Shown here piece after piece: positions 53,035 to 57,662 of a stretch of 64,000 bases of DNA. A model generated the notes under the pieces. That model was not told where the DNA came from. It worked only from the letters and a program-made list of their open reading frames with translations, and ran no database searches. Both the position numbers and the translations under genes were made by a program. Source of the stretch: Pedobacter glucosidilyticus DSM 23534 (GTDB taxonomy: Bacteria > Bacteroidota > Bacteroidia > Sphingobacteriales > Sphingobacteriaceae); assembly GCF_000425145.1 (NCBI RefSeq), contig NZ_AULF01000009.1, positions 124,001 through 188,000 of the forward strand. Direction: 5' to 3'. Position 1 is the stretch's first letter. Every line of letters starts with the position of its first letter.

Positions 53035-54887
<1,853 letters not shown>

Positions 54888-54891
54888 TTTT

Positions 54892-55872
54892 TTATGCTAA
54901 TATGCTAGACATTTCCATTAAATCGTCTTCTAACTTAAACTCATGTCCTGATAGTGCTTCACTTAAATCAGTAAGTGCAATAGTATTGCCATGCAAACCA
55001 ACCATTTTTCTGGTTTGGCCAGCCAATAATGCTTTTACCGCTGCAAAACCCATTCTACTGCCCAAAATTCTATCAAAACTACTTGGGCTACCGCCTCTTT
55101 GTAAATGGCCTAAAATGGTAACTTTAGTATCGTAGTAATCAAATTTTTCTTTTACTCTTTTAGCTACGTTATAAGCACCTCCGTTTTTATCTCCTTCGGC
55201 AACAATTACAATACTAGATGATTTTAAGTTAGCCGCCCCATGCTCTAGTGTTGAAATTAAATCCTCTATAGCTGTATCTTTTTCTGGTAACATAATAGCT
55301 TCTGCGCCGCCTGCAATACCAGCTCTTAAAGCTATACATCCAGCATCTCTTCCCATTACTTCTATAAAGAATAAGCGGTCATGAGATTCTGCCGTGTCTC
55401 TTATTTTATCAATAGCTTCTATTACCGTATTAGTTGCGGTATCAAAACCTAAAGTAAAATCAGAACCATAAAGGTCGTTATCAATAGTGCCTGGTACACA
55501 AATTACAGGAATATCGTATTTGTTTGAGAACCTTTCTGCACCTGTAAATGTTCCATCTCCACCTATCGCAACTAAGGCATCTATTCCTTGTTTTTTTAAA
55601 TTTTGATAGGCTTTTTCCATCCCTTCCTCCGTTCTAAATTCCAAACAGCGGGCAGTTTTTAAGATAGTACCGCCTAATTGCATGATATTACTTACCGAAT
55701 GACGATTCATCACTATAAAGTTTTCATCTATCATTCCTTGATAACCTTGTTTTATTCCAATCATCTCACAACCAAAATGAATACCTGTTCTCACAACAGC
55801 TCTTATACACGCATTCATTCCTGGGGCGTCTCCACCGGAAGTAAACACTGCTATTTTCTTAATTTTCGACAT
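54892..55872 (-). CDS. pfkA: 6-phosphofructokinase, ATP-dependent
   Basis: The 326-residue enzyme phosphorylates fructose-6-phosphate, the committed step of glycolysis. Visible motifs are FTSGGDAPGMNACIR, GGDGTFTGAERF, PGTIDNDLYGSDFTLGFDTA (with the catalytic acid in TIDND), EVMGRDAGCIAL and GGSPSSFDRILGSRMG. The length is that of PfkA, and the GGDGT form predicts ATP rather than PPi use. The ATG at 55872 is used; an upstream ATG at 55887 would add five residues. It begins the pfkA-pseudokinase-gap operon. Confidence 0.95.
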   Translation of the reverse strand: MSKIKKIAVFTSGGDAPGMNACIRAVVRTGIHFGCEMIGIKQGYQGMIDENFIVMNRHSVSNIMQLGGTILKTARCLEFRTEEGMEKAYQNLKKQGIDALVAIGGDGTFTGAERFSNKYDIPVICVPGTIDNDLYGSDFTLGFDTATNTVIEAIDKIRDTAESHDRLFFIEVMGRDAGCIALRAGIAGGAEAIMLPEKDTAIEDLISTLEHGAANLKSSSIVIVAEGDKNGGAYNVAKRVKEKFDYYDTKVTILGHLQRGGSPSSFDRILGSRMGFAAVKALLAGQTRKMVGLHGNTIALTDLSEALSGHEFKLEDDLMEMSSILA

Positions 55873-55911
55873 TTTTATTTTGAACATTGGTTTAAGGCTT
55901 ACTAATATACG

Positions 55912-55933
55912 GTGTATTTTTTACACTAAGTGA
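55912..55933. promoter_or_regulatory. Candidate operator of the pfkA operon (ACACTAAGTG site)
   Basis: ACACTAAGTG (55923-55932) lies 51-60 bases upstream of the pfkA ATG, and an inverted repeat GTGTA-TTTTT-TACAC (55912-55926) touches it. The same decamer occurs in the promoter of the intact kinase gene. The divergent Nudix-type regulator gene begins 58 bases further on. Confidence 0.5.
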
Positions 55934-55990
55934 GATTTTGTCAATTTTTTTTTTCAAATTTGATAATTGAATTTTTATAAACGCTAAGAT

Positions 55991-56689
55991 TTGGAAAATT
56001 TACCTTTACGTTTTGAGTCGATTTTCTCGGCTGATTGTATCATTTTTGGATTTGATGAGGGTGAATTAAAAGTTTTGCTTATCGAGCGAAATGAAGAGCC
56101 TTTTAAAGAATGGTTTGCCTTGCCTGGAAACTTTGTTTATGAAAATGAAAGTATAGATGAGGCAGCAGAACGTATATTATACGAGTTAACCGGTTTAAAA
56201 GGTATTTACATGCAGCAGTTTTATACTTTTGGCGAGGTTAATAGACACCCACAAGGTAGGGTAATTACGGTGGCTTATTTTGCTATGATAAGATTAAATG
56301 GGCAAAAAGAATTAAAACCTGTTACCAATTATGCCAGAAAAGCTGTTTGGGTTTCAGTAAAGGATTTGCCTCAATTAGCTTTTGACCATACTGAGATTTT
56401 TAAGAAAGGTTTTGAGAAAATTAAGAATAAGATTAGCTACCAACCTATTGCTTTTGAGCTTTTACCAGAGAAGTTTACCCTTACGCAATTACAAAACCTG
56501 TACGAGGTTATCTTAAATAAAAAGCTAGATAAAAGAAACTTTAGAAAGAAAATGTTGGCTTACGATATTTTAAAAGAGCTGGATGAGAAGCAGAAAGGTG
56601 TTTCTTATAGAGCAGCAAAACTATACAAATTTGATAAGCGTAAATACAGTAAATATTTCCATAACGAGCTGTCTTTTGGTAAAGAGTAA
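55991..56689 (+). CDS. Nudix-type transcriptional regulator (NrtR/AraR-like)
   Basis: The 232-residue protein has an N-terminal Nudix domain (CIIFGFDEGELKVLLIERNEEPFKEWFALPGNFV) and a C-terminal winged helix-turn-helix (FTLTQLQNLYEVILNKKLDKRNFRKKM) ending with YKFDKRKYSKY. The Nudix box is damaged: ESIDEAAERILYELTGL keeps only one of the usual metal-binding glutamates, so hydrolysis is unlikely. This is the pattern of NrtR-like regulators such as Bacteroides AraR, which bind a sugar or metabolite instead. The gene starts with TTG at 55991 and is divergent from pfkA, next to two sugar-kinase-like genes, so a glycolysis or amino-sugar regulator is the best guess. Confidence 0.82.
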   Translation: MENLPLRFESIFSADCIIFGFDEGELKVLLIERNEEPFKEWFALPGNFVYENESIDEAAERILYELTGLKGIYMQQFYTFGEVNRHPQGRVITVAYFAMIRLNGQKELKPVTNYARKAVWVSVKDLPQLAFDHTEIFKKGFEKIKNKISYQPIAFELLPEKFTLTQLQNLYEVILNKKLDKRNFRKKMLAYDILKELDEKQKGVSYRAAKLYKFDKRKYSKYFHNELSFGKE

Positions 56690-56709
56690 GCTCTCGTAAA
56701 TTATTAAAT

Positions 56710-56740
56710 AAAAATGGCGCATTAAGCGCCATTTTTATTT
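56710..56740. terminator. Bidirectional terminator between regulator and kinase genes
   Basis: AAAAATGGCGC / GCGCCATTTTT (56710-56720, 56726-56736) form a perfect 11-bp stem with loop ATTAA, with T runs on both sides; it overlaps the final codon of the kinase gene. Confidence 0.92.
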
Positions 56741-57592
56741 TTTATTAAATTTTCTTACGTGATAATCTACCAAATTATCTATAGGAGAGCGGATGATAAC
56801 CCCCATTTCCATGCCGTATTCTTGAGCAACTTCTTCTAAAATATTTCTAAAGTTATAAGCAACAGAGCCAATACAATTAAATTTATAAGAAGTATAATTA
56901 GGATAATGGCTTACCAGATTTTTGAAAAAATCATCAAAAGAAGATTTAACTAAATTTCTAGAATATTCTATATTAACCGTAATATCGTAAACAAATTTGC
57001 TAAAACTTGCACAAAATCTGTTTGGTAGTGGTTTGGTATAAACCTGATCTAAAATATCATCTGGCGTTAGTTTAAAGGTTTCCCAAAATACGGCTCTCAC
57101 ATTTTCTGGCATATAACCCCTTATATAATCTGATAAAAGTTTTTTACCAATATAACAGCCACTACCTTCATCTCCTAAAATATAAGCCAGAGAATCAATA
57201 TTAAATTCTATGTCTTCACCATCATAGATGCAAGTATTAGTACCTGTGCCTAGTATGGCGGCAAAGCCTCTTTCATCGCCTAGTAGGGCTCTTGCAGCTG
57301 CTAATAAATCATGTCCGATGTTTACTTTTGCATTGATAAAAAAAGCCCTCATGGCTTTTGCTACAATTTCTGCTTTTTCATCGTTATGTACCCCAGCACC
57401 ATAATAATTAACTTCTTTAATAGCTGCTATAGGCAAATCAGATGCAATATTTTTCTTTAATGATTCTAAAATATACTCGGTATTAGAGAAATAAGGATTG
57501 TAACCTTCAGTGTTGAAAAGTACTTTTTTCCCATCTTCAGTAATTAAGCACCAGTTTGTTTTGGTCGAGCCTCCATCGGCAATTATAATCAT
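56735..57592 (-). CDS. N-acetylglucosamine-kinase-like ATPase (BadF/BadG/BcrA/BcrD family), intact
   Basis: The 285-residue protein has the complete ASKHA kinase set: phosphate-1 loop IIADGGSTKTNW, catalytic Asp in NIGHDLLAAARA, phosphate-2 loop AAILGTGTNTCIYDG and DEGSGCYIGKKL. By comparison with human NAGK and related bacterial proteins, a GlcNAc or similar amino-sugar kinase is likely, but the substrate is not certain. It is a paralogue of the degenerate protein at 54036. Its promoter carries the same ACACTAAGTG element as the pfkA operon, which suggests common control. Confidence 0.82.
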   Translation of the reverse strand: MIIIADGGSTKTNWCLITEDGKKVLFNTEGYNPYFSNTEYILESLKKNIASDLPIAAIKEVNYYGAGVHNDEKAEIVAKAMRAFFINAKVNIGHDLLAAARALLGDERGFAAILGTGTNTCIYDGEDIEFNIDSLAYILGDEGSGCYIGKKLLSDYIRGYMPENVRAVFWETFKLTPDDILDQVYTKPLPNRFCASFSKFVYDITVNIEYSRNLVKSSFDDFFKNLVSHYPNYTSYKFNCIGSVAYNFRNILEEVAQEYGMEMGVIIRSPIDNLVDYHVRKFNKK

Positions 57593-57639
57593 GTTAATTT
57601 AAATTAGGTTTTTAAAGATAGGTAAATCTTCTTATTGTA

Positions 57640-57662
57640 CAAAATACACTAAGTGTTTTTTG
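57640..57662. promoter_or_regulatory. Candidate operator of the intact kinase gene (ACACTAAGTGT palindrome)
   Basis: CAAAATACACTAAGTGTTTTTTG (57640-57662) is a palindrome with 10 of 11 arm positions paired around A57651; its core ACACTAAGTGT (57646-57656) lies 54-64 bases before the kinase ATG. Confidence 0.55.

Follow-up and report, generated by a model that had tools for sequence, protein, structure and literature searches.

The regulators that adjust glycolysis to sugar supply in the enterobacteria and in Bacillus are Cra (FruR), a LacI-type protein, and CggR, a SorC-type protein, respectively. Control of the whole pathway seems to be little described in the Bacteroidota. No transcription factor of this phylum acting on pfkA, eno, and pyk is named in the titles or abstract openings among the open-literature matches listed, a set that most subscription papers fall outside. 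The Bacteroides sugar regulators AraR and XylR are known members of the NrtR family (PMC4666351; PMC3878776). The main text of PMC4666351 mentions neither phosphofructokinase nor glycolysis.

The window analyzed here is a stretch of 64,000 nucleotides from Pedobacter glucosidilyticus DSM 23534. It contains an NrtR-family regulator gene that is divergent from pfkA. The best reading of the locus is that this gene encodes a predicted Cra/CggR-like regulator of glycolysis of NrtR descent in the Sphingobacteriaceae. The whole proposal, which is judged likely, is that the product of 55991–56689 would act as a dimeric NrtR-family repressor and control central sugar metabolism through the palindrome TTAGTGTA-N5-TACACTAA. 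The features of the locus are collected in Table 1.

Table 1. Positions of the regulator gene, predicted operators, and neighboring features in the window
Feature	Position	Strand	Basis or remark
gap, glyceraldehyde-3-phosphate dehydrogenase	53035..54030	-	TIGR01534, 460 bits (cutoff 367)
BadF-type pseudokinase between pfkA and gap	54036..54887	-	Pfam, locus comparison
pfkA, 6-phosphofructokinase	54892..55887	-	TIGR02482, 406 bits (cutoff 371); PFK, 374 bits
Probable pfkA -7 promoter box, TATATTAG (consensus TAnnTTTG)	55902..55909	-	box start coincides with the operator's final base
Operator O1 (predicted), ACGGTGTATTTTTTACACTAA	55909..55929	.	between pfkA and regulator gene; score 21.7, top in window; 36/37 orthologous pfkA promoters
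Decamer ACACTAAGTG	55923..55932	+	right end of O1 plus three nonconserved bases
NrtR-family regulator, degenerate Nudix domain and winged helix, TTG start	55991..56689	+	Pfam, alignment, structure model
BadF-type kinase	56735..57592	-	PDB relatives are GlcNAc and putative MurNAc kinases
Operator O2 (predicted), TTATTGTACAAAATACACTAA	57632..57652	.	upstream of kinase gene; score 21.2; 17/27 orthologous kinase promoters
Decamer ACACTAAGTG	57646..57655	+	right end of O2 plus three bases beyond the operator

The assignment of the regulator to the NrtR/AraR group and its divergent orientation, both made in the original prediction, were confirmed using Pfam matches to NrtR_WHD (100.9 bits, cutoff 27), AraR_C (54.7 bits), and NUDIX (52.8 bits, cutoff 21.1). 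The protein has the domain plan of the NrtR family, a Nudix-like domain followed by the NrtR winged helix, and misses the curated score of the NAD-type NrtR equivalog NF050029 (161.7 bits versus a cutoff of 400). Structural alignment of an AlphaFold model with AraR (BT0354) of Bacteroides thetaiotaomicron (BtAraR) gave a Z score of 23.2 and 45% identity over 209 aligned residues. The mean pLDDT of the model is 76.9, with values below 50 for residues 204–207 of the wing, and therefore no conclusions about the pocket or the wing were drawn from it. The DNA contacts listed for BtAraR in PMC4666351 are K179, R180, N181, K184, K204, and R205. The residues aligned with K179, R180, N181, K184, and R205 are all identical (K181, R182, N183, K186, and R207), and K204 corresponds to Y206. 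DKRNFRKK is found unchanged in all 17 orthologues compared.

The L-arabinose-binding triad of BtAraR (Arg34, Arg86, and His131) is kept as R33, R85, and H133 and is likewise invariant in 17 orthologues. The pocket residues F36, G48, and G89 are replaced by E35, N47, and Q88, respectively. The kept triad together with the changed pocket positions favors a predicted sugar-like ligand other than arabinose; the triad is not decisive, because two of its three residues are also spatially kept in the ADP-ribose-binding SoNrtR (PMC4666351). The signature REUXEEXGU, given for active Nudix enzymes in PMC4666351, reads ERILYELTGL in the regulator, with catalytic glutamates replaced (by eye), and catalysis is therefore unlikely.

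A tree of 77 sequences, with an arbitrary root, places the pfkA-linked regulators in one clade with a support of 99/96. A paralogue from the same genome (L043) joins BtAraR at 100/99, away from this clade; BtAraR, SoNrtR, and L044 are on long branches, and such joins may be false. The grouping with BtAraR that would be expected of an AraR protein was not obtained for the regulator, which falls in its separate clade (the BtAraR branch being long). The AraR-branch paralogue of this genome (L223, 4529–8483) has two aldose 1-epimerase-like genes in its vicinity, along with a third gene resembling BadF-type kinases that reads DSGST (by eye). Among NrtR relatives from other lineages, L354 and L367 are beside NAD-salvage-like genes and L352 is beside xylose and transketolase genes (mostly by eye). 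Similar palindromes occur near these genes in L354, L367, and L352, a pattern of one DNA code with several regulons.

The original prediction took the decamer ACACTAAGTG as a regulatory element shared by the pfkA and kinase promoters. Both positions are exact, and no further mismatch-free copy was obtained in a count over the whole window. With up to one mismatch allowed, there are 4 copies in the window, which is the chance level (shuffle mean of 3.16; 41 of 100 shuffles reach 4). The larger palindrome reported at 57640–57662 is present, with 10 of 11 arm pairs matching by eye. The spacings of 51 and 54 bases to the start codons hold, provided that pfkA starts at its second Met (MSKIKK), probably the conserved start as judged from orthologue starts. 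A count over the whole genome gave two mismatch-free copies of ACACTNAGTGT, one in the kinase promoter and one at C6:6344 within an ORF resembling a two-component system. A shared element does precede both pfkA-pseudokinase-gap and the kinase gene, but it is a 21-bp palindrome to the left of the decamer.

This predicted operator is a palindrome of the NrtR/AraR type, and both decamers overlap its right half. The leftward extension of the decamers reads GGTGTA-TTTTT-TACACTAA at O1 and TTATTGTA-CAAAA-TACACTAA at O2. The 21-bp element was tested because the order of its half-sites and their like spacing match the AraR operators of B. thetaiotaomicron, given as oligonucleotides in PMC4666351. A weight matrix was trained on O1, O2, and the orthologous sites. 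O1 and O2 provided the two highest scores in the window, and the next score is 12.5. In 20 first-order Markov copies of the window, the mean number of matches scoring at least 15 is 0.1, and none reaches 21. A palindromic operator of about 21 bp in target promoters, which is a trait of the NrtR family, is thus found here at the level of sequence.

The regulator was matched in 145 of 151 family genomes at E ≤1e-20, and 40 loci of 7–10 kb around it were picked over many genera from the matching genomes. The pfkA gene is beside the regulator in 37 of the 40 chosen loci, and the kinase (at least 45% identity) is present in 27. The operator appears at a score of at least 15 within 300 bp in 36 of the 37 pfkA promoters and in 17 of the 27 kinase promoters, counts that are partly circular because the matrix was built from those same promoters; the other 10 kinase promoters are without it. 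As a background, 9 of 174 ORF starts in the 40 loci have a site, and by their coordinates 8 of these belong to the divergent neighbor of a kinase promoter. In a survey of named genomes (the best 80 of at least 570 relatives, including Pedobacter, Mucilaginibacter, Sphingobacterium, Albibacterium, Olivibacter, and Parapedobacter), pfkA accompanies the regulator in 37 of 80 loci, and the element precedes pfkA at a score of at least 14.5 in 33 of these 37. No query glycolysis gene was found within the fetched flanks in the Saprospiraceae sister clade. The regulator is kept next to gap in a genome of 1.7 Mb (G022; L077, 2897–4747), where the 10 kb contains no pfkA or kinase and no good operator precedes gap (10 of 16 positions).

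The kinase gene misses the curated score of NagK (NF046058; 21.9 bits versus a cutoff of 370). A MurNAc kinase of Tannerella is the subject of PMC5790795. The pseudokinase reads YSGS or FSGS in 35 of 36 loci at the position where the kinase has DGGSTKT; in the remaining locus (L063), this part of the gene is out of frame. Its sequence across these loci marks the pseudokinase as a conserved family and not as a product of decay, and a role as a sensor or partner is conceivable. In the genome with the out-of-frame copy (G001; L063, 7086–7933 and 3300–4279), the pseudokinase and cobW were each matched as two pieces in different frames, which may reflect either a sequencing error or a real frameshift.

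Model R1 was constructed from 26 sites in pfkA and kinase promoters only. In the genome scans with models R1–R3, 150 candidates were scored per genome (150 of 5171 for R1 in the P. glucosidilyticus genome). R1 provided 14 distinct places at E ≤10 in this genome, and 11 of these score at least 15 by the matrix; ten of the 11 precede an ORF, and the other falls within one. The ten promoters are those of pfkA, the kinase, enolase, pyruvate kinase, fructose-1,6-bisphosphatase (FBPase), the N-terminal half of transketolase, a GMC oxidoreductase, a secreted protein of 161 residues, a subtilase, and a HipA-like kinase. Four of the eight outside the training set (eno, pyk, fbp, and tkt) belong to central carbon metabolism, for which the probability by chance is approximately 7e-7 under the assumption that 1% of units are central carbon. 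The GMC oxidoreductase, the secreted protein, the subtilase, and the HipA-like kinase have no evident tie to glycolysis. None of these ten promoters, obtained from the 150 scored candidates out of 5171, belongs to an NAD gene. R1 gives its best match at the pfkA site in 18 of 18 genomes of the genus, which is expected from the training set. The secreted-looking protein (L104, 880–1365; G000:C6:97533) has no Pfam match and carries the best R2 operator in its genome. Its homologues in five more genomes of the genus have the operator at almost the same distance, 146–148 bases.

Recurrent targets in relatives include at least enolase, the kinase, pyruvate kinase, a sodium/solute symporter, FBPase, the GMC oxidoreductase, SusC-like proteins, and transketolase; these tallies are lower bounds counted as loci, with several places entered twice under two locus identifiers. 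Phosphoglycerate kinase (pgk) appears once among the matches listed. In 15 further genomes, 13 of which gave a match, sites were found at pyruvate kinase, enolase, class II aldolase, FBPase, gap, galactokinase (galK), and glucosamine-6-phosphate deaminase (nagB), among many other genes. The curated cutoff was passed by enolase, pyruvate kinase, FBPase, aldolase, gap, nagB, and galK; transketolase (half-length) and pgk were named by a best match below it.

A direct reading of 250-bp promoters was also made for enolase and pyruvate kinase in 46 family genomes. The operator is present in 24 of the 46 enolase promoters (23 before rounding), and in all but one of the 24 it begins 47–87 bases ahead of the start codon. 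It is present in 29 of the 46 pyruvate kinase promoters. For either gene, the mean with dinucleotide shuffles was 0.03 of 46 (maximum of 1), and 0 of 46 promoters were matched by a column-permuted matrix. The absences, 22 of 46 for eno and 17 of 46 for pyk, are real misses and include the regulator-keeping genera g5 (G021 and G045) and g8 (G024 and G048). The plain pattern KTGT-N7-ACAM was useless in the P. glucosidilyticus genome, where its 157 places are fewer than the 238 of the reversed control. Model R3, with mirrored and permuted columns, served as an imperfect control, GATGAT being common in coding DNA. Among the 21 loci examined for R3 (20 places), there is no glycolysis promoter, and 16 have the site inside an ORF; two sites are inside ORFs that weakly resemble a symporter or a SusC protein.

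Genomes in which no complete regulator was found, compared with one that keeps it, gave a mixed picture. No regulator was found in G038 (99% complete), which has no operator at eno or pyk and no R2 match at E ≤0.7. G045 keeps the regulator, yet it has no R2 match at E ≤0.7. In G040, a regulator piece of 35 residues is located at a contig end, perhaps as a cut gene, and eno and pyk are without the operator. No regulator was found in G049, yet operators are present at gap (L227) and pyk. A diverged homologue is located beside a BadF-type kinase in G027 and G064, which belong to the same genus, so an assembly gap may account for this genome.

The geometry of the pfkA promoter suggests how the operator would act. 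The -7 consensus TAnnTTTG comes from a flavobacterium (PMC9723704). In 32 of 36 pfkA promoters, a box with no more than one mismatch on the pfkA strand has its first base in common with the final base of the operator. A dimer that abuts this box would bar the polymerase, and so repression is the likely outcome at pfkA. The most frequent box offset is shared by at most 4 of 23 enolase sites, at most 8 of 29 pyruvate kinase sites, and at most 7 of 17 kinase sites, and the promoter box is not clear at eno and pyk. The operator of the P. glucosidilyticus FBPase gene is centered 18 bases before the start.

In the proposed mechanism, the winged helix of the regulator would read TTAGTGTA-N5-TACACTAA, and the Nudix domain, having lost catalytic residues, would serve as a sensor, most likely of a sugar or sugar phosphate. 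The ligand-free dimer would be positioned against the promoter box of pfkA-pseudokinase-gap and block RNA polymerase. Ligand binding would then pull the winged helices away from the DNA, which is the effect of L-arabinose on BtAraR. The genes for the kinase, enolase, pyruvate kinase, FBPase, and transketolase would be under the control of the regulator in this genome by way of this operator, as would other glycolytic and sugar genes in relatives. The regulator may also control itself, as the original prediction allowed, because the gene order is regulator, operator, pfkA and O1 is situated in the divergent gap common to both genes. In this family of soil and water bacteria, a disabled-Nudix regulator appears to recognize one palindrome before many sugar-breakdown genes and to act as a predicted general switch of glycolysis.

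Other readings of these sites were weighed. The original prediction described a local regulon of two promoters recognized via the decamer, of which an exact copy is indeed present in both. By the terms of that prediction, a lack of conservation in orthologous promoters would refute the decamer, and this is the outcome: an exact copy precedes pfkA in 4 of 37 cases and the kinase gene in 2 of 27, as opposed to 36 of 37 and 17 of 27 for the 21-bp element. The decamer was therefore ruled out as the operator. The three bases after TAA that complete the decamer vary among pfkA promoters and read CAC at only 4 of 36 sites. The predicted regulon is not local either, since its other targets in the genome include enolase, pyruvate kinase, FBPase, and transketolase, all encoded away from this locus. 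A local regulon based on the decamer is already contradicted and can be considered highly improbable; the original interpretation as a whole is partly supported.

The operators could also be real but serve chiefly a different member of the NrtR family, for example the AraR-branch paralogue, with the pfkA-linked gene as a bystander. The motif alone cannot name its binder, because similar palindromes occur near NAD-type NrtR relatives of other phyla and near a XylR-like one in a Flavobacteriales locus (names by eye), and the half-site is common to the NrtR branches. The P. glucosidilyticus paralogue (C11:33558) is 42% identical to the regulator, but it groups with BtAraR, its helix reads DKRNFSRKL versus DKRNFRKKM, and the 10-kb stretch around it has no operator (best score of 6.3). 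The persistence of operators in G049 suits a different binder; the retention of the regulator beside pfkA in the chosen loci argues against a bystander, and this explanation is quite improbable. It is unlikely, too, that the ligand sensed is ADP-ribose or NAD, as in a classical NrtR, so that glycolysis would follow NAD status and not sugar. All three arabinose-binding residues are retained (two of them spatially in SoNrtR also), catalytic glutamates of the Nudix signature are replaced, and the ten promoter sites obtained from 150 of 5171 candidates include no NAD gene; what speaks for NAD is the family membership, the use of NAD by gap, and the NAD-salvage-like genes that adjoin relatives in one genome of the Planctomycetes and one of the Bacteroidales (by eye). 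The preferred reading remains that of a sugar-responsive repressor of glycolysis genes encoded beside pfkA.

If this proposal is true, control of glycolysis becomes a testable question, centered on one named protein with a close homologue of known structure, for which the operator is defined and the targets are few. Nudix regulators would then be spread over NAD, arabinose, xylose, and glycolysis on a single type of operator. It is tentatively suggested, as a scenario that could hold but falls short of being probable, that a former NAD-sensing lineage turned an enzyme pocket into a sugar sensor and became a family-wide master regulator of glycolysis, with the DNA code held and the regulon and ligand changed.

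The fold and the operator type are known, and the regulon and the role are apparently new. AraR (BT0354) resembles the regulator in its fold, its GTGT half-site with like spacing, its DNA-reading helix, and residues R34, R86, and H131. It differs in that the regulator forms a separate clade, has E, N, Q, and Y in place of F36, G48, G89, and K204, and has a predicted regulon of glycolysis rather than arabinose use. The NrtR of NAD metabolism from Shewanella oneidensis (3gz5/3gz6) shares the family and the domain plan, but none of the ten promoter sites obtained here from 150 of 5171 candidates precedes an NAD gene. The likeness to Cra and CggR is one of predicted role, a sugar-responsive regulator over glycolysis genes, and it may extend to control of both directions of the pathway, as by Cra, because FBPase carries the operator too. 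The difference is that the regulator in the window is a Nudix-winged-helix protein with another operator.
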